25,372 nt of DNA from Synergistaceae bacterium UBA1037 (GTDB lineage: Bacteria; Synergistota; Synergistia; Synergistales; Synergistaceae), in assembly GCA_002316795.1 (NCBI GenBank), contig DCEE01000049.1, positions 15,437 to 40,808 on the forward strand. The letters run 5' to 3'. The translations under genes and the position numbers were made by a program. Below, one piece after another: positions 1 through 15,000 of this stretch (within the stretch, counting starts at the first letter, position 1; each line of letters begins with the position of its first letter). Under the pieces are notes generated by a model. It saw only the letters and a list, made by a program, of their open reading frames with translations, did no database searches and was not told where the DNA came from.

Positions 1-117
1 TTTAGAGCGAGTGATAACGACGCAACGCGCAGTGGAGCCTTCCGAAGGCGTATATTAATACGTCGAAGGAAGGCTCCGCAAGTGTTGCTAAGTCAGCACC
101 GCTATAAATCCCAATTG
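1..117. repeat. Palindromic 126-bp element, copy 1 (left end cut by window)
   Basis: This copy is about 93% identical to the copy at 2372-2497 (8 differences in 117 bases, counted by eye). The window edge removes its first 9 bases. It holds the 5' box GCGAGTGATAACGACGCAAC at 7-26, a perfect 10-bp inner stem (GGAGCCTTCC 34-43 with GGAAGGCTCC 68-77), an apical hairpin CGTAT-ATTA-ATACG, the 3' box CTAAGTCAGCACCGC at 88-102, and the right outer arm ending in CAATTG at 117. It ends 3 bases downstream of the stop codon of the diguanylate cyclase gene. No ORF inside it is credible. Confidence 0.9.
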
Positions 118-120
118 CTG

Positions 121-1647
121 TTAGAGGGAGAGTTCGACCCTATTCCTACCTCCGCGCTTCGCCCTATACAAAGCTTCGTCGGCACGGGCGATGACATCGG
201 TGCTATCCTTATCGTCGGGCCTGAAGTAGGAAATGCCCATCGACACGGTCGTGCTTATTCTGTTGCCCTCGTGGTCTATCCCGCTCTCTTCAACAACTTT
301 GACCCATCTCTCACAGATAAATCCTACGCTCTCGCTTTTCAGACCGCGGCAGGCTATGACAAATTCATCCCCGCCCCAGCGGAAGATCTTATCTTCGTAA
401 CGGATCTGGGATCTTAAAGCTTCAATTGTATTTTTGAGTATTTCGTCCCCGACATCGTGACCATATGTGTCGTTTATTGTTTTGAGGTTGTCCATGTCCA
501 CCATAATGAAGGCAGTCTCTGAACCGCCCCGGCCAAACCGGTCAAGTTCCTCTGCCAGGAATTGCTCTGCGGTCCTCCTGGTCAGGGCCCCTGTTGTTGT
601 ATCGATGCTTACCGCATCTTCTAACTCCTTTTTCATTCGCATGTGATATCTGTTTTCAAGACAGACTACAGCCGCATGGCTTGCAAAAATCAGGGCGGCT
701 ATCATTCCGGCTATTACAAGGGCAAGCTTTGTTATGATGCCTTCGCTTGCCTCTTCTGCCCTCCGTACATATGCCGCCATGTCCTCCTGATGCATCCCGA
801 AGGCAATTATCCAGTTGTATCTCTTGTAGAGTTTGGCGTAAGTGAGCTTTTCGGCTATCCTGTCCTCGGTTTTCTTCTTAAAGTGATAGGTAAAGAAGAT
901 CTCTCCGTCTTTTTTGACACCTTCAAGTTCTTTCAGATAAGGCCGGGCGCCCATTATGTCCTTCATTTCGGTGGATAGGTACATTCCCTCCGTCTCTTTG
1001 AGGTTCGGGTGCACTCTCCTTATCGCATAGTCGTCCCCGCCTTCGTAGTTGACGACCTCATTCACCCATATGTAGGAATCAAGCGGAAACTTTGAGTTGT
1101 GTATCTCCGCTGCTATCTTTTTCTTGACCTTCTGATCTATCACATCGGCTTTCACACCATAAAAAAGTGCTGAACCGGCAAATTCTTTTATTCCGTAGAC
1201 GGGGAACATTTCCTTTGCCTTCTCGATCTCTGCTGCCGCGTTTTTCCCTTTTATAAGTCCCTCAGGGTCATAGAGGGTCTTTGATGTTTTTTTGTCCCAT
1301 ACTACAAATGTCAATACACCTTCATGGACTCCCTTTTCCGCATATCTTCTGCAGAAGTTTATCAGCTCTGTGCTGTTCGCCGGAGGAAGGGTATCAAGAA
1401 TAAGTGAGAGTTCGTCTTTAAGATCTTTAAAGAGGCTCTCTTGATAGGCTATTTCTTCTTCGATGCGGATGATCTGGTTCTCTACAGTAAATTTGAGGAA
1501 ATCCTTTTTTGACTCAAGTATCGAGAGCTCCGTGTTGTGCTTGTAGACATCATTAAAATATTTCTCAAAAGCCCCATATATGATGAAGACAGCAATAGCG
1601 GCTATAAGTGCCGTTACAAGAAATATTATTTTATACCTGCCCCTCAT
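121..1647 (-). CDS. Membrane-anchored Cache-GGDEF diguanylate cyclase
   Basis: Predicted to make the second messenger c-di-GMP from two GTP in response to a periplasmic ligand. Numbering from the ATG at 1647, a membrane segment spans about residues 6-26. A periplasmic Cache-like sensor follows (about 30-300, with HPNL and YNWIIAFG stretches common in such sensors), then a second membrane segment (about 303-330). The C-terminal GGDEF domain has an intact GGDEF active-site motif (425-429) and an RxxD inhibitory site (RYED, 416-419) five residues upstream, so it should be active and product-inhibited. The frame stays open to a GTG at 1680, but AGGAG lies about 10 bases before the ATG at 1647, so I prefer that start. 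A GTG directly before it is also possible. The gene appears monocistronic. Its ligand is unknown. Confidence 0.93.
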   Translation of the reverse strand: MRGRYKIIFLVTALIAAIAVFIIYGAFEKYFNDVYKHNTELSILESKKDFLKFTVENQIIRIEEEIAYQESLFKDLKDELSLILDTLPPANSTELINFCRRYAEKGVHEGVLTFVVWDKKTSKTLYDPEGLIKGKNAAAEIEKAKEMFPVYGIKEFAGSALFYGVKADVIDQKVKKKIAAEIHNSKFPLDSYIWVNEVVNYEGGDDYAIRRVHPNLKETEGMYLSTEMKDIMGARPYLKELEGVKKDGEIFFTYHFKKKTEDRIAEKLTYAKLYKRYNWIIAFGMHQEDMAAYVRRAEEASEGIITKLALVIAGMIAALIFASHAAVVCLENRYHMRMKKELEDAVSIDTTTGALTRRTAEQFLAEELDRFGRGGSETAFIMVDMDNLKTINDTYGHDVGDEILKNTIEALRSQIRYEDKIFRWGGDEFVIACRGLKSESVGFICERWVKVVEESGIDHEGNRISTTVSMGISYFRPDDKDSTDVIARADEALYRAKRGGRNRVELSL

Positions 1648-1711
1648 CACAGCACATCTCCTTTTCCCTTTTATCCGCACGAAAAACGCGCGGTTTTATT
1701 AATCGTATGTG

Positions 1712-1720: not shown

Positions 1721-1767
1721 CCACTTGCAAGAATTTATTTAGAATTAAAATTGTTTTAGTTCAATAA

Positions 1768-1966
1768 GGGCCGGAGAGGCAGTCATGAGGGCAGCCGGGA
1801 AAAGCACGGCGGCAAACAATGGGCAAGCAGTCGTAGGAGTCAAAGGGCGGGGAATTGCGGCCAAGGGCCGCGGAGGTTCAAAAGCACCGTCGCTGCCTGC
1901 ATTGGACCAGCTCTCCGTCTTTCCCGGATGCTTCTAAACGGGAATCCAGCGGCTTTGGGTTTAGGG
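1768..1966. other. Intergenic stretch with two small hairpins, no gene
   Basis: No credible coding frame is visible. Two inverted repeats stand out. GCGGCC at 1857-1862 pairs perfectly with GGCCGC at 1866-1871 around a 3-base loop. TTCCCG at 1921-1926 pairs with CGGGAA at 1939-1944, followed by TCCAGCGG. The second resembles the widespread ATTCCC...GGGAAT dispersed repeats (dRS3-like), but this is only one copy and the match is loose. The rest holds nothing I recognise. Confidence 0.5.
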
Positions 1967-2220
1967 CCTAAAAAGCCAGTCATAGCAAGGATCCAAAGAC
2001 CCTTTCACGATTGAGGCACTCGGGGAAGAGGGTTAAAGAGACTTTGATTTACCGCCGGATGGCTCTCCCGGCAAATTCCCCGCAATGCGAGCATCGCAAA
2101 GCGTTGCAAATTCTCCGCAGCGTTTCTCAGCTGCAAATTCACCGCGAGTGCATTCCTCGCAAATTCTCCGGCGGACGACCTCGCCGCCAACCTTTCTAAG
2201 TCAGCGCCGCGCTTTTAAGG
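1967..2220. repeat. Degenerate fourth palindromic element enclosing a hairpin array
   Basis: The ends CCTAAAAAGC (1967-1976) and GCTTTTAAGG (2211-2220) are complementary at 9 of 10 positions. Just inside the left end, 1975-1990 resembles the 5' box of the 126-bp elements with about five bases missing. Just inside the right end, 2196-2210 is an exact copy of their 3' box, CTAAGTCAGCGCCGC. The inner stem region of the other copies is here replaced by about 65 bases of unrecognised sequence and the five-hairpin array. The exact 3' box is solid; the left half is weak, so the grouping is partly inference. Confidence 0.5.
2054..2188. repeat. Array of five hairpins with a constant linker
   Basis: Five short inverted repeats follow one another. 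They are GCCGG/CCGGC (2054-2058, 2068-2072), GCAATGC/GCGTTGC (2082-2088, 2101-2107, one T-G wobble), GCAGC/GCTGC (2117-2121, 2130-2134), GCGAG/CTCGC (2144-2148, 2156-2160) and GGCGG/CCGCC (2170-2174, 2184-2188). Each of the first four right arms is followed at once by AAATTC and then CCC, TCC, ACC or TCC, leading directly into the next left arm. After the fifth the linker decays to AACCTTTC. Loops of 7-12 bases are unrelated to each other. The unit spacing is 26-28 bases with one of 35. Stems differ in sequence yet remain complementary, so pairing rather than sequence is conserved. Confidence 0.8.
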
Positions 2221-2242
2221 TTTTACGATAGTACCAATATCG

Positions 2243-2368
2243 CAATTGGGGCAGATCGCGAGTGATGACGACGCAACTTGTGATGCTCCGAACCGAGGCG
2301 TATATCCATACGTTGAGGTGATGGAGCATCGCATGTTGCTAAGTCAGCGCCGCGAGATGCCCCAATTG
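2243..2368. repeat. Palindromic 126-bp element, copy 2 (divergent stems)
   Basis: This copy is bounded by CAATTG at both ends and is exactly as long as copy 3. The outer arms pair over about 18 bases (CAATTGGGGC with GCCCCAATTG, plus GCG/CGC, around a 3-base mismatch). The 5' box is at 2258-2277 and the 3' box at 2339-2353. The inner stem GATGCTCC (2282-2289) with GGAGCATC (2323-2330) is perfect, yet its sequence is unrelated to the inner stem of copies 1 and 3. The apical hairpin CGTAT-ATCC-ATACG is shared. Only 3 bases separate this copy from copy 3. Confidence 0.9.
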
Positions 2369-2371
2369 CCG

Positions 2372-2497
2372 CAATTGGGATTTAGAGCGAGTGATAACGA
2401 CGCAACACGCAACGGAGCCTTCAGAAGGCGTATATCAATACGTCGAAGGAAGGCTCCACAAGTGTTGCTAAGTTAGCGCCGCTATAAATCCCAATTG
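2372..2497. repeat. Palindromic 126-bp element, copy 3
   Basis: CAATTG marks both ends. The outer 18-base arms (2372-2389 and 2480-2497) pair at 17 of 18 positions. The 5' box is at 2387-2406 and the 3' box at 2468-2482 (one base changed). The inner stem GGAGCCTTCA (2414-2423) pairs with GGAAGGCTCC (2448-2457) with one mismatch. The apical hairpin is CGTAT-ATCA-ATACG. The element ends 2 bases before the mutS2 stop codon (2500-2502), so it would form the first part of the mutS2 3' untranslated RNA. No T-tract follows, so a standard intrinsic terminator is unlikely. Confidence 0.9.
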
Positions 2498-2499
2498 CA

Positions 2500-4857
2500 C
2501 TATTTGCGGAAGCGGACGATGGTAACCCCATACCCTCCGTCATGAGGCCCACCTAGGTTATGCTCGATAACATACGGGGTTCTTTTACAGAGTTCCTGTA
2601 CCTCTCTCCTTAATATGCCCTCGCCGCGGCCGTGGATGACCGCTACCGAATCATATCCTGCCCTGTAGGCCTGGTCAAGGTATTGCTCGACCAATGGTAT
2701 CGCTTCGTCTATCGTCATGCCCCTTACCATTATCTCGCTTGGAACTCCGACCGGGCGGGAGACCTTGACCTGTACCGACGGAGCTGCCTGAGGGATCTCC
2801 TTCTCCGGAACAATGCTGAGTTTGGTCAGAGGGACCTCCACCTGTGCTGCGCCGGCCTGGACAAGGACCTTTTTGCCCCTGATCTCCAGAACAGAGGCAA
2901 CGCCTTTTGTCCCGATTATCCTGACGGCATCTCCCGGTTTGAGGGTCTCCTTTTTGGCCGCCACAGACTGCTGGGTGATCTTTTTCTCTTCCCTTTCGAC
3001 GACAGACTTCTCTATCTTGTGGAAGTGGCTTCTCTTCTTTTCGAGTTCGCGCCTTGCGGCCGACTCCGCCTCTGCGGATCCAAGGTTCTTGATGAGAGCC
3101 CTCGCCGATTCCTCTGCGTTTTTGACTATGCTGAGGGCTTTTTTGTCAGCCTTTGCTATAAGGGCATCCCGTTTTTCCTCGATCTCCCTGACCCTCTCCT
3201 CATAATCCTTTTTCAGTTTTTCAAGTTTCCTGAGCGAGTTCTCGACCTCGGTGCTCTCTTTTTCAAGCTTTGAACGTTTTCCGTGAAGCTCCGCAATGAG
3301 GTCTTCCATTGATATTTCCTTGCCGCTTATGGCCTGCTCAGCCCTTTTTATTACTTCACGGGGCATCCCGAGCTTGCCCGCTATGAGAAGGGCGTTGCTC
3401 CTTCCCGGGATGCCGGTGAGTATTTTGTAAGTCGGAGAGAGGGTCGCAATGTCAAACTCAACGCTCGCGGTCTCTATTGAGGCCGTTGCGAGTGCAAAGC
3501 GTTTTATCGGGTTGTGGTGGGTCGTGGCAAGGACAAGAGCTTTTTTCTCCCTTAGCCAGTCAAGGATCGCTATCCCCAGCGCGGCTCCCTCCTCCGGGTC
3601 AGTACCGGCTCCAAGTTCGTCAAGCAGGACAAGGGAATCGGATCCGACTCTGTCCAGTATCTCGGTCACATGCTTCACATGGGCGCTGAAGGTGGATAGA
3701 CTCTGTTCAATGCTCTGTTCATCGCCAATATCCGCGAAGAGCTCACCGATCACACCAAGGACCGATCCCTCGGCAGCAGGTATCGGAAATCCCATCCATC
3801 CAAGGATCGCACATACACCGGCTGTCTTAAGGGCAACGGTCTTGCCGCCCGTGTTGGGTCCCGTGATAACAAGTATTCTGTATTTGTCGCCGCACCCGAT
3901 GTCGATGGGCACTGCCTTATCAAAGAGAAGGGGGTGACGGGCCTTTTTGAAGCTGAATATGGCCTTCGAAGACAACTCAGGCATCGTCCACCTGTCCAGA
4001 CGCTTTTTTTCCGAAAGCGCATAGAAGAGATCTATGGTGCCAATTATTTTTTCTGCATCCAGTATCCCTTTTGTCTTTTTTTGGATCCTTGAGGTCAGTT
4101 CGCGCAATATCCTCTGTTCCTCATATATCTCCGAGTTTCTGCAGGATGTGAATTCGTTGTTGAGCCTGATCATCGAGTTCGGCTCCATGTATACGCTGTT
4201 GCCGGACACAGAACGGTCTACCACGGAACCGGGGAAGATGCTAAGCGCATCGGGGCGGACAAGAAATGTATACCTCCCGTTCCTTATCGTCATGACCCTC
4301 TCCTGGAGCATCCCCGATATCGAAGGATCGTTGATAAGTGCGTGCCCTTTTCTTCGTATGGTCTCCCTAAGTTCCTTTATCTTCTCCCTGACTGTTTTGA
4401 GCTTTTCGGACGCAGAATCGTAAAGCCTTCCGTCGTCATCTATGACGGAGAGTCTTTCCAGTTCATCGGTGAAATCCCTTATATCCCTGGTCATCAATGA
4501 AAATACCGGGTATTTTTCCTTCTCCGAACCGAGTACATCTTTTAGCTTCATGGAAAGCTTGATCAGGTGACGTATCTTAAGGAGCTCTTCCCCTGTGAGG
4601 AGGCCTGTTTCGTCCGCTTCGGCAAGCATGGGTGAGACGGGGGCGAGCCCGTTCTGCCACGGCAGCTCACCCTTTCTCTCCCTGTAATCCTCTATTGACA
4701 GAAAAAGTTCGTGTCTCGTTTTGAGTTCATCGGGATTTTGGGCAGGCACCGCCGATAAGGCAGCTTCCTCGCCTATTTCGCTCCTGCAGTATTTTGATAT
4801 CAGGGGGATTATCTTTTTTATCTCAAGGCTGCTGTATGATGAACTTTCTGCGATCAT
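2500..4857 (-). CDS. mutS2: MutS2-family ATPase/endonuclease with Smr domain
   Basis: MutS2 proteins bind branched DNA and suppress homologous recombination; in some Firmicutes they also rescue collided ribosomes. At 785 residues this is the usual family length. It has a MutS core and clamp region (about 1-320), Walker A GPNTGGKT (333-340), Walker B LVLLDELGAGTDP (409-421) and a THH switch (about 446-448). A long charged coiled coil (about 515-625), a KOW-like beta region (640-685) and a C-terminal Smr domain (about 705-785) with HGRGEG (742-747) follow. The Smr N-terminal motif, normally LDLR/HG, reads IMVRG here, so the usual Asp is absent. The ATG overlaps the cvpA stop by 4 bases (ATGA), suggesting translational coupling. 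It is the last gene of the long minus-strand operon. Confidence 0.97.
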   Translation of the reverse strand: MIAESSSYSSLEIKKIIPLISKYCRSEIGEEAALSAVPAQNPDELKTRHELFLSIEDYRERKGELPWQNGLAPVSPMLAEADETGLLTGEELLKIRHLIKLSMKLKDVLGSEKEKYPVFSLMTRDIRDFTDELERLSVIDDDGRLYDSASEKLKTVREKIKELRETIRRKGHALINDPSISGMLQERVMTIRNGRYTFLVRPDALSIFPGSVVDRSVSGNSVYMEPNSMIRLNNEFTSCRNSEIYEEQRILRELTSRIQKKTKGILDAEKIIGTIDLFYALSEKKRLDRWTMPELSSKAIFSFKKARHPLLFDKAVPIDIGCGDKYRILVITGPNTGGKTVALKTAGVCAILGWMGFPIPAAEGSVLGVIGELFADIGDEQSIEQSLSTFSAHVKHVTEILDRVGSDSLVLLDELGAGTDPEEGAALGIAILDWLREKKALVLATTHHNPIKRFALATASIETASVEFDIATLSPTYKILTGIPGRSNALLIAGKLGMPREVIKRAEQAISGKEISMEDLIAELHGKRSKLEKESTEVENSLRKLEKLKKDYEERVREIEEKRDALIAKADKKALSIVKNAEESARALIKNLGSAEAESAARRELEKKRSHFHKIEKSVVEREEKKITQQSVAAKKETLKPGDAVRIIGTKGVASVLEIRGKKVLVQAGAAQVEVPLTKLSIVPEKEIPQAAPSVQVKVSRPVGVPSEIMVRGMTIDEAIPLVEQYLDQAYRAGYDSVAVIHGRGEGILRREVQELCKRTPYVIEHNLGGPHDGGYGVTIVRFRK

Positions 4858-12438: not shown

Positions 12439-13098
12439 TTACTCGCCCTCAGTTGTTGCCTTAGGCTGCTTTTCCTCTTTTTTAGGGGCAGCTTCCGCTT
12501 TCTTAGGCGCGGATTCTTTCTTTGCCGGCTTATCCGCTGCGTTTTCCTTCGGAGCCGAAGGCTTCTTGACGGGTTCTGCCTGGACGGCAGGAGCTATCAT
12601 TATTCTCATGTAAGCGCCTTCCATCCTCGGTTCCATCTCCATCTTCCCAAAGTCGGATATCGCATTCATGACCTTGTTAAGTACTTCTCTGCCGCGGTCA
12701 AGAAATGCCATTTCTCTTCCCCTGAAGAAGACAGAGACCTTAACACGATGACCGGCCAGAAGGAAGGTCTTTATCGCCTTTACCTTGAAATCATAGTCAT
12801 GCTGGTCGATCTTGGGGCGCATCTTGATCTCTTTTACTACCTGATTTTTCTGTTTCTTGCGGGCATCCTTGTCGCGCTTCTGCTGCTGGAAACGATACTT
12901 TCCGTAATCCATTATCCTGCACACCGGCGGGGTCGCCTGGGGAGCTACCTCCACCAGGTCAAGTTCAGCCGCTTCAGCCATTGCGAGTGCTTCTTTCGTG
13001 CTTATTATGCCGCGCTTGGCGTTTTCTTCGTCGATGAGAAGAATTTCAGTTGCCCGAATGTCGGAATTCACGCGGGGCTCGTCGTCCCTGTTTGCTAT
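12439..13098 (-). CDS. infC: Translation initiation factor IF-3 (AUA start, Lys/Ala-rich tail)
   Basis: IF-3 binds the 30S subunit, prevents early 50S joining and proofreads the start codon. Upstream of an internal in-frame GTG at 13071, the frame continues for nine codons to an ATA at 13096-13098, with GGAGG 9 bases before it. These codons read ANRDDEPR and lead into VNSDIRA, the expected IF-3 N-terminus, so I take the ATA as the start (219 residues). Rare start codons on infC are known (AUU in E. coli) and allow IF-3 to repress itself. The N and C domains end near residue 177. A further tail of about 42 residues rich in Lys, Ala, Pro and Glu is unusual and probably disordered. Confidence 0.95.
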   Translation of the reverse strand: MANRDDEPRVNSDIRATEILLIDEENAKRGIISTKEALAMAEAAELDLVEVAPQATPPVCRIMDYGKYRFQQQKRDKDARKKQKNQVVKEIKMRPKIDQHDYDFKVKAIKTFLLAGHRVKVSVFFRGREMAFLDRGREVLNKVMNAISDFGKMEMEPRMEGAYMRIMIAPAVQAEPVKKPSAPKENAADKPAKKESAPKKAEAAPKKEEKQPKATTEGE

Positions 13099-13130
13099 GG
13101 CGTTACACCTCCTGAGTTAATATATTGCTC

Positions 13131-13167
13131 AAATTAAAATGAGCCCGGCACAGAACGCGCCAAGCCC
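13131..13167 (-). terminator. Attenuator-like hairpin in the infC leader
   Basis: On the minus strand GGGCTTGGC (13167-13159) pairs with GCCGGGCTC (13149-13141) through nine pairs including three G-U wobbles, followed by ATTTTAATTT. It lies between the predicted promoter and the infC ribosome binding site, where a terminator would act as an attenuator. In Bacillus the infC-rpmI-rplT leader is controlled this way by L20. Confidence 0.55.
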
Positions 13168-13262
13168 ATTGGAAATCTCTTCCCGGGTAGACCTGACAAC
13201 TTGCAGCGTCGGCAGGCGAGAGGCGCACCCTCTGCTTGTAAACCCGTTGATATAAATCAACC
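13168..13262 (-). promoter_or_regulatory. infC operon structured leader (possible L20 or similar control)
   Basis: The leader begins at or near the predicted start of transcription with a hairpin, GTTGAT-TTAT-ATCAAC (13261-13246). AGAGG-GTGCG-CCTCT and further GC-rich self-complementary stretches follow before the attenuator-like hairpin. Such length and structure ahead of infC fit an autoregulatory ribosomal-protein leader. I could not match it to a specific described L20 leader class. Confidence 0.45.
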
Positions 13263-13267
13263 TGTGT

Positions 13268-13296
13268 ATGCTAGCACATATTCCTGCTTTTCGCAA
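13268..13296 (-). promoter_or_regulatory. Promoter for the infC operon
   Basis: On the minus strand TTGCGA (13296-13291) is followed after exactly 17 bases by TAGCAT (13273-13268), preceded by a TGC extension. Each hexamer matches consensus at 4 of 6 positions. The predicted start of transcription is near 13261, giving a leader of about 160 bases to the AUA codon. Confidence 0.55.
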
Positions 13297-13528
13297 CAGT
13301 AACGATTTTTTAACGCCTTTTAACAGCTCCAAAGAAATATACTTCATGATGAAAATTGCGGATATAACTTTACTCTGTGCTTTGTATAGCCCGTTATTGT
13401 CACTATTTGATTATAATAGCAATCGACCTTATGTGTACAGCAGAAAGCAGATGACTTTCGGCCCGCTGTCTCAATATCGCATAGTGGCGGGCATGCACAC
13501 TTAATAAGGAAAAAGGAGAAAATATCAC
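13297..13528. other. Intergenic region upstream of the metallophosphoesterase
   Basis: No credible gene. The stretch is AT-rich and contains TATAAT at 13412-13417 on the plus strand without a good -35 partner. A later inverted repeat pairs GCCCGC with GCGGGC (about 13462-13493). GGAG lies 9-10 bases before the ATG at 13529. A long leader for the downstream gene is possible but the promoter is uncertain. Confidence 0.4.
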
Positions 13529-14875
13529 ATGAAAAAAGTATTTGTCCTGTTGCTTTTGACTATTATTTTATCAGTTTCACCCTCCCGCCCCGGATACGCT
13601 CCCGCTTATGGAGCAGATGCGAAAGAGGACGCTTCGTTTAAAGAAGTTTTCACACTTGGCAGCAGAGGCATTTCGGAAATTGATAATGAGCGCAAACTCA
13701 TTATATTCATAAGTGATATTCATCTTGGAGCAGACGACAGCTATAGCGAAATCAATAAGAACAGGGAACCTCTCGTAAAGTTCCTCGAACAGATCAGAAA
13801 AGCCCCAAATATCAAGGAACTGGTAATAGGGGGAGATTTGATAGATCTATGGTTTGTTCCAAGCTCAACGGAAACGTTCAAAGGAAAAACACAGAATGAC
13901 TTTGTCCGCGTTGTTGCAAAAAACAATAAGCATGTGATCACCGCATTCAATAATATTATCCGCGACGGGAAGATCAAAGTGACATATATTCCGGGTAATC
14001 ACGATTTAACTGTAACTGCAGAGGACATTGAGAGCATACTTCCCGGAATCGATCAACAGCGTGATGTGCAGGGACTGGGAAGCTATTCACCCGAGGGACA
14101 TCCTGAAATTATAATGGAGCACGGACATCGCTATAATTTTTTCTGTGCACCTGACCCTATCTCAAACAGGGATATAGCTCCGGGTTCTATATTACCGCCC
14201 GGATATTTCTTTACAAGAATAGCCACGACCTCTGTTGTTGAAGGATTCCCAGAGGCTGCAGGCAAAATCCCGGAAGTGACCTTAATTTCCTACGGAGAAG
14301 AGCAGATATTTGCGTATATTTACTGGAAAGCCTGGTATGGATTAATGACAGATTTTCCGGTAAACGAGGGCTTTGATGAGAAGATCATAAAAACAAACAT
14401 CGACGGCTTCACCGAAAACTATTCAATAAGCGATTTAATGCCCTACCAGCTGTCAGCCGGAGGATACATCAACATTAAGTTGTATAAAAAGATCCTTGGC
14501 ACATGGGATGAACGACAGGCACTCAACCGGGTCTTCGTCAAAATACCGCTGAAAGAAGCCATTATGGAGGCAGGTTCCGGAACCGAAACTGATGCCCAGG
14601 CTGAAGTCCAATATTTTAAAAACCCAGATTCTGATAAGCGGATAGTTGTTTTCGGGCATACCCACGAGCCCAGGATCATTGCTTCTCAAAATCTCAGAGG
14701 ACAAAAAACTATTTATGCCAATTCAGGAACATGGATCGATCAAAACCCCAAATTCCCCACGATGACTTTTGTGGTGATCACTCCGCAGGGGAACAGCTCT
14801 CTTCCTCTGTCTCTCTCCCTTTATCACTATTCACCCGACGGGACCATTACAAAAATAGATACTCGATCGCTGTAG
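13529..14875 (+). CDS. Exported calcineurin-like metallophosphoesterase
   Basis: A two-metal phosphoesterase of unknown substrate. The N-terminus is a signal peptide (KK, hydrophobic core VFVLLLLTIILSV, possible cleavage after about residue 28 in AYGA-D). All calcineurin-like blocks are present: SDIHLG with D63 and H65, GGDLID (D103), GNHD (157-159), MEHGH (H198/H200) and GHTH (376-379). About 175 residues separate the last two metal motifs, much more than in the related lipid A enzyme LpxH, so a large lid or inserted domain is likely. It is the only plus-strand gene between two minus-strand operons and looks more AT-rich than its neighbours, which may indicate separate ancestry. A periplasmic phosphodiesterase or pyrophosphatase is plausible, but I cannot name the substrate. 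Confidence 0.88.
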   Translation: MKKVFVLLLLTIILSVSPSRPGYAPAYGADAKEDASFKEVFTLGSRGISEIDNERKLIIFISDIHLGADDSYSEINKNREPLVKFLEQIRKAPNIKELVIGGDLIDLWFVPSSTETFKGKTQNDFVRVVAKNNKHVITAFNNIIRDGKIKVTYIPGNHDLTVTAEDIESILPGIDQQRDVQGLGSYSPEGHPEIIMEHGHRYNFFCAPDPISNRDIAPGSILPPGYFFTRIATTSVVEGFPEAAGKIPEVTLISYGEEQIFAYIYWKAWYGLMTDFPVNEGFDEKIIKTNIDGFTENYSISDLMPYQLSAGGYINIKLYKKILGTWDERQALNRVFVKIPLKEAIMEAGSGTETDAQAEVQYFKNPDSDKRIVVFGHTHEPRIIASQNLRGQKTIYANSGTWIDQNPKFPTMTFVVITPQGNSSLPLSLSLYHYSPDGTITKIDTRSL

Positions 14876-14905
14876 CTGAAAAAGGTATATATTGAAACAT
14901 AAAAA

Positions 14906-14937
14906 TTGAGCCCAAAGAACAGATCCTTTGGGTTCAA
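14906..14937. terminator. Convergent terminator between metallophosphoesterase and thrS
   Basis: TTGAGCCCAAAG (14906-14917) pairs with CTTTGGGTTCAA (14926-14937) over 12 positions with one G-T wobble around an 8-base loop. Minus-strand transcripts coming from thrS then read TTTTTATG, a good U-tract. Plus-strand transcripts read TTATTATA, which is weaker. It can therefore serve both convergent genes. Confidence 0.8.
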
Positions 14938-14951
14938 TTATTATACAACAG

Positions 14952-14987
14952 TCGATCGGACTGGCAAATTGTCAAATCGCCGATCGA
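14952..14987. repeat. Inverted repeat in the thrS 3' region
   Basis: TCGATCGG (14952-14959) and CCGATCGA (14980-14987) are perfectly complementary around a 20-base AT-rich loop. It lies 14 bases after the thrS stop codon and before the main terminator. No T-tract follows on either strand, so it may stabilise the 3' end of the mRNA. Confidence 0.45.
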
Positions 14988-15000
14988 AAAAGATCTGTTT

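Follow-up and report, generated by a model that had tools for sequence, protein, structure and literature searches.

The covariation of stems is usually taken as proof of a functional RNA. The locus described here raises the question of whether that interpretation holds for a row of adjoining hairpins whose stems all differ yet are all self-complementary, and which are joined by a constant linker, or whether the pairing is instead kept at the level of the DNA, either by selection or by a copying process. The array lies in the window, by which we mean the whole stretch of 25,372 nucleotides from Synergistaceae bacterium UBA1037 that was analysed, within about 820 bases of non-coding DNA between mutS2 and a GGDEF-type gene. 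Read from the sequence, the array consists of five adjoining hairpins at 2054-2188, with stems of 5, 7, 5, 5 and 5 bp, joined by AAATTCNCC. The features of the locus are listed below, with the evidence for each given in brackets.

1-118, plus strand: second B2-type copy of the family-B repeat, truncated at the window start and lying beyond the GGDEF gene (repeat comparison).
121-1680, minus strand: GGDEF-type gene (named from translation).
1811-1834, minus strand: tail at the outer end of the left arm, made of GGCAAAC / GGCAAGC short direct repeats (sequence; tails in relatives).
1849-1856: inverted linker remnant GGGGAATT, preceding the left-arm remnant hairpin (sequence).
1857-1871, minus strand: left-arm remnant, hairpin GCGGCC-AAG-GGCCGC (sequence; similar module in relatives).
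1872-2053, no strand: element centre, palindrome TTCCCG...CGGGAA at 1921-1944 (sequence; genus comparison).
2054-2072, plus strand: hairpin unit 1, stem GCCGG/CCGGC at 2054-2058/2068-2072, 5 bp, 9-nt loop (sequence).
2073-2081, plus strand: linker AAATTCCCC, AAATTC + CCC (sequence; motif count).
2082-2107, plus strand: hairpin unit 2, stem GCAATGC/GCGTTGC at 2082-2088/2101-2107, 7 bp with one T-G pair, 12-nt loop (sequence).
2108-2116, plus strand: linker AAATTCTCC, AAATTC + TCC (sequence; motif count).
2117-2134, plus strand: hairpin unit 3, stem GCAGC/GCTGC at 2117-2121/2130-2134, 5 bp, 8-nt loop, missing from G127 (sequence; G127 comparison).
2135-2143, plus strand: linker AAATTCACC, AAATTC + ACC (sequence; motif count; G127 comparison).
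2144-2160, plus strand: hairpin unit 4, stem GCGAG/CTCGC at 2144-2148/2156-2160, 5 bp, 7-nt loop, missing from G127 (sequence; G127 comparison).
2161-2169, plus strand: second occurrence of linker AAATTCTCC, AAATTC + TCC (sequence; motif count).
2170-2188, plus strand: hairpin unit 5, the end of the array, stem GGCGG/CCGCC at 2170-2174/2184-2188, 5 bp (sequence).
2193-2211, plus strand: truncated end of a family-B repeat (repeat comparison).
2241-2369, plus strand: copy B1 of family B, a 129-bp repeat whose ends are palindromic (repeat comparison; alignment).
2370-2498, plus strand: family-B repeat copy B2 (repeat comparison; alignment).
2500-4857, minus strand: mutS2 (named from translation).

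When CAAATTCNCCG was searched for with at most 1 mismatch, 8 matches were found in the window, 4 of which are the exact linkers of the array, and none of 100 shuffled sequences reached 8. Arrays were also sought by a rule that requires at least 3 perfect hairpins in direct succession, their linkers identical and their stems different; under this rule the window holds one array, which comprises units 3-5 (2117-2188), unit 2 failing the perfect-stem requirement. An earlier note on this DNA had reported five adjacent, differing, self-complementary hairpins with a constant linker, and that description was confirmed by reading the coordinates and stems and by 40 dinucleotide shuffles (1.01 Mb), in which there were 0 such arrays. 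A further 674 kb of loci from outside the genus, which were preselected by the linker pattern and are hence not a random sample, yielded 1 array that proved on reading to be a plain tandem repeat of one hairpin.

The linkers are overrepresented when counted against reversed patterns: in the window's genome AAATTCNCCGC occurs 33 times compared to 3, and GCAAATTCNCC, with at most 1 mismatch, 222 times compared to 53, while in the 2.1 Mb genome G126 CRAATTCNCC occurs 161 times compared to 20. Because of the excess in G126 and the existence of close genomes, the rates of unit gain, unit loss and stem change are measurable. Linker pairs, counted when 10-30 bases separate the two linkers, are present in 7 of 8 genomes from one Synergistaceae genus, with 2-48 in each and 0 throughout for the reversed control; in 177 other genomes of the phylum there are 6 with a single match, and none of the six is a hairpin. 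A wider scan of contigs with the linker pattern matched at least 113 stretches. Among the matches listed, both bodies are hairpins in 28 of 102 two-unit contexts in the genus compared to 0 of 129 outside it, and one body is a hairpin in 64 of 102 compared to 2 of 129. A wider taxonomic spread was rejected, because no context listed outside the genus has hairpins in both bodies. The linker pattern also matched 25 viral stretches, with no hairpin in any of their 32 two-unit contexts, and a phage or plasmid origin was discarded when a blastn search with window 1760-2500 gave no match in either collection. Linker-spaced hairpins similar to those of the window, for which the earlier note had proposed a search, are therefore present elsewhere, and the outcome that the note had named as refuting its idea did not occur. 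The neighbouring genes at 57 loci, assigned by a crude ORF call in which orthologues are counted twice, are in tandem at 23, convergent at 17, divergent at 10 and unassigned at 7; a gene-orientation bias was dropped from consideration because the ORF call is too crude.

Fuller copies read in relatives identify the array as the right arm of a composite intergenic repeat, so that the array does not stand alone but is one arm of a composite and often two-armed element. From one end to the other, a full copy has short direct repeats as its outer tail, then a left arm with GGNGAATTYG between the hairpins, the centre with its TTCCCG...CGGGAA palindrome, a right arm with CRAATTCNCC between the hairpins, and a second tail; the portion of the centre at about 1912-2029 was found by sequence search to recur elsewhere in the genus. 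Where neighbouring linkers on opposite strands lie no more than 500 bp apart, their order is minus-then-plus, which is to say outward, in 5 of 5 cases among 62 exact G000 matches and in 8 of 8 cases among 100 of the 161 G126 matches, and these 13 of 13 pairs among the matches listed represent about 9 distinct loci, four of them shared between genomes. The linkers of opposite arms are mutually complementary, so either strand can fold back on itself, and cross-arm pairing of linkers is predicted with a probability of 0.65-1.0 in 8 of 8 two-arm copies by folding with RNA parameters and no shuffled control, a result that follows largely from the linkers being inverted. Such pairing is inapplicable to the window copy, which retains one left-arm hairpin only and lacks most of the left arm. 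In two copies (L188, L211) the recurrent unit GCGATGCGAAGCGAG stands opposite its own reverse complement, which lies in the second arm. The tails at L177, L210, L022 and L114 are made up of the short direct repeats GTTTGAC, GCTTCAC or GCTCAGC, which are mostly uniform inside one tail and different between elements.

Arrays of the same design with other linkers, of the ACTTCTC and AGTTTCAC classes, also exist, and an ACTTCTC-linker array lies on the opposite side of the GGDEF gene. These classes bear on the proposal that the linkers or hairpins are putative sites for a nucleoid or repair protein, in a protein-binding or chromosome-architecture array. A constant linker of 9-10 bp, the near-regular spacing of the units and their dispersal over intergenic slots would all suit such a role, but linkers that differ between arrays are unlike the site of one protein, and we consider the proposal highly improbable.

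Between close genomes the arrays differ in the number of their units, as a comparison proposed by the earlier note was meant to reveal. The locus in G127, which matches that of the window at about 90%, is without exactly 53 bases, which correspond to two units measured linker to linker, and retains hairpin unit 2. A second array differs by one 25-base unit, plus one 11-base repeat in the tail, a third differs by one unit, and a fourth, in a left arm (G126 C6 compared to G127 C50), has the same four units in both, so that 3 of the 4 arrays compared differ, always by whole units at linkers. In more distant relatives the same gene neighbourhoods carry different copies or mixes of modules; all of the 10 orthologous slots read, of 12 listed, are filled with some member of these repeats, and among them there was neither a clean empty site nor a duplicated target. 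Identical linkers would allow recombination or replication slippage to add or remove whole hairpins, and would also allow copies to exchange modules. The observed unit changes match recombination or slippage of this kind, and the addition of cassette-like units stepwise by a dedicated system, as had been suggested, is therefore unsupported. The integron integrase TIGR02249 scores over the cut-off in 0 of the 8 genomes, with all 8 and all 14 control genomes giving sub-threshold scores only, and integron-like cassettes or an attC array were rejected on this basis.

Pairing was evaluated in a sample of 125 loci, which gave 247 unit contexts and 171 distinct bodies; 9 bodies were left out by length and 12 by hand (those spanning the element centre, or non-units), while the 15 bodies of the recurrent GATGCGAAGC type were tallied apart, so that 135 core bodies remain. 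At variable stem pairs 3-5 of these bodies, 344 of 405 cells are Watson-Crick, compared to a mean of 158.4 (sd 9.4, maximum 193) when the 3' arms are redealt in 2000 shuffles. Along 56 nearest-neighbour edges, changes occurred at 67 of 319 loop sites and at 19 of 634 stem sites, which is 7.0-fold faster per site in loops, and 5 stem pairs were altered on both sides; the units are related by descent, so these loop and stem counts are not independent trials. The Watson-Crick counts and the rates of change bear out the argument that stems which differ and yet remain paired reflect either selection for pairing or a copying process.

The further statement that the loops are unrelated holds for the five in the window but not across the family, in which three-base loops are biased to GNA. 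In a loop table restricted to bodies with a perfect stem of at least 5 (80 of 170 after trimming), a three-base loop is carried by 19 bodies, and it reads GNA in 10 of them on the linker strand and in 0 of 19 on the opposite strand, the background being 59 of 972 hairpins in loci outside the genus, and six GAA loops are carried on six different stems. Among four-base loops 1 of 22 is GNRA; 1 of 22 is GNNA, and imperfect bodies of odd length have a GNA centre in only 7 of 35 cases, two counts that speak against the stable DNA type. The most frequent unit, GCGATGCGAAGCGAG, is poor as a long hairpin but has GCGAAGC inside, and 39 of the 247 contexts contain it. According to the available part of PMC4686876, GNA and GNNA loops with at least two G-C pairs form extraordinarily stable DNA mini-hairpins, and the GCGAAGC DNA mini-hairpin melts near 78 degrees.

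Stem mismatches counted on the linker strand comprise 25 G-T/T-G and 21 A-C/C-A, with no RNA-like wobble excess, although this test is weak, because two-arm copies have their arms on opposite strands and an RNA G-U signal would be averaged out. Taken together, the loop type and the mismatch counts lean towards folding as single-stranded DNA rather than as RNA, as far as sequence can indicate. If the array were a multi-hairpin RNA, it would be transcribed with the neighbouring gene and its hairpins would act in the RNA, serving as a sponge or in stability or processing. Covariation in stems is a signature classically associated with RNA, and the adjacent family-B repeats covary with 104 G-U/U-G compared to 26 A-C/C-A on the strand on which their structure is predicted, 67 of the 104 coming from four recurring pairs. 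We nevertheless regard a multi-hairpin RNA as unlikely, given the lack of a G-T excess in the array, the scarcity of GNRA among four-base loops and the leaning of three-base loops to the stable DNA type, the mixed gene orientation over the 57 loci under the crude ORF call, the 0 Rfam matches at gathering score in the whole window, and the failure to find promoter- or terminator-like sites, intrinsic terminators included, in 1690-2500.

Alternatively, the stems may be made and re-perfected by template switching or quasi-palindrome correction, as a mutational by-product in which the hairpin is unselected. Template switching can create and maintain perfect stems (PMC8794818, in the part available), the G-T and A-C mismatches are symmetric, and the stems GCAGGAC-GAA and GCCTGAC-GAA have the same loop with two whole pairs different. 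Against this, no inverted loop, a template-switch footprint listed in the same part of PMC8794818, is present among 193 same-stem pairs, and the occurrence of GNA loops on one strand and of two outward arms would be left unexplained, which makes a purely mutational origin quite improbable in our judgement.

The reading that we think probable makes the array the right arm of a composite repeat between genes, which is found in one Synergistaceae genus and resembles REPIN/BIME and BOX elements, with linker-mediated exchange of units, a maintained single-stranded DNA fold and the character of mainly selfish or mosaic DNA. Pairing would then be maintained because it matters that the linker strand folds as single-stranded DNA, most likely so that a putative host enzyme can recognise or mobilise it; repair that copies one arm of a stem to its partner might help. 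The element would have no dedicated gene-regulatory role. Stems that covary in dispersed repeats, where loops are of the DNA type and wobble pairs are not in excess, provide a natural test of structure selection or copying at the DNA level.

REPINs and BIMEs, as described in the accessible portion of PMC3116915, are intergenic, many-copy elements in which a spacer separates two inverted palindromic ends; they are predicted to fold as single-stranded DNA or RNA and show compensatory hairpin changes. The present element similarly has inverted palindromic arms around a spacer at about 9 distinct loci (the window copy having a left-arm remnant only), but an arm here carries several different hairpins in a row, spaced by a constant linker. 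The REPIN palindrome tag GTAG or CGTC (PMC3733652, available part) is absent from the four window linkers, AAATTC(C/T/A/T)CC. Also unlike the REPIN case, Y1_Tnp (PF01797, RAYT) is found in only 2 of 8 genus members; among the six that lack it, several are incomplete drafts, but G128 and G129, each 99% complete, also lack it while arrays are frequent in them. RAYT-driven REPs are unsupported by this distribution of Y1_Tnp. That no mobilising enzyme was found counts against the preferred reading, as do the filled slots and the fourth array with its unchanged units.

Pneumococcal BOX elements are composite, modular and folded, with a variable number of tandem boxB between end modules (PMC3049150, in the text available), and the present repeat is likewise composite, modular and variable in unit number when architecture alone is compared; boxB copies, however, are one sequence family, whereas here the linkers are constant and the hairpins vary. 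The neisserial mosaic elements (dRS3 + RS) are intergenic repeat arrays linked to gene gain and loss in the available part of PMC3898611, and the repeat resembles them as a mosaic intergenic array with a TTCCC...GGGAA palindrome in its centre, but differs from dRS3, ATTCCC(N8)GGGAAT, in spacing and first base, the window centre being TTTCCC-14 nt-GGGAAT at 1920-1945. In comparison with MITEs, which have terminal inverted repeats and a target-site duplication, the arms here are inverted, but no empty site appeared in the 10 slots read. No published account matching the hairpin-array repeat was found in a literature search that included the available part of the survey PMC2267715, and such an account may exist. 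Double-hairpin elements occur in fungal mitochondria; the literature search on them gave nothing relevant. On the sequence evidence we take the hairpin-array repeats to be a putative new REPIN/BOX-like family that would fold as single-stranded DNA, and would file the element among the small interspersed palindromic repeats.

The alternation of a constant with a variable part also recalls CRISPR, but the design is the reverse one, since here the palindromes are variable and the linkers constant. A more far-reaching and rather doubtful reading would treat the constant linkers as joints for shuffling hairpin modules, with a conserved linker-strand single-stranded DNA fold capped by super-stable GNA loops, a putative enzyme that reads the fold and not the sequence, and, in the two-arm form, opposed hairpins on a linker:linker helix. 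If this is true, the repeat would represent a structure-coded class of mobile or recombinogenic element.

Two 129-bp family-B copies follow the array and one lies at the window start. Family B is a 129-bp palindromic repeat with the constant boxes GACGCAAC, GGCGTATATCNATACGT and TTGCTAAGTYAGCGCC, and with outer and inner stems that covary; in 35 oriented copies aligned, 1244 of 1400 stem cells are Watson-Crick. Among the 8 genus members, 7 have a match to copy B1, as do 3 of 44 other genomes of the family. In G164, which belongs to another genus, the family-B core lies inside different repeated elements (L267-L279, 10 of 13 loci fetched), and these elements again combine constant boxes with varying paired stems.

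The repeats bracket gene gain and loss, here of the GGDEF gene, which was not found anywhere in G126, a genome placed in the species of the window's genome. At the corresponding locus (L214) G126 has the same neighbour gene, and the element and the B copies run straight to mutS2; its B2 copy combines the window's two copies in a clean mosaic, in which six sites match one type and the next two match the other. In G127 the end of the GGDEF gene lies at the contig edge, and because G127 carries this end, the simplest reading is that the gene was deleted in G126 by recombination between the direct B repeats, the alternative being an insertion. Elsewhere, alignment offsets indicate one B copy more in G126 than in the window's genome.

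Away from the array, the GC content of window 13001-15000 is 0.43-0.44 compared to about 0.5 in most other kilobases (1001-2000 having 0.45). This stretch holds a plus-strand gene at 13529-14875 that is metallophosphoesterase-like by translation, and it may possibly have been acquired.
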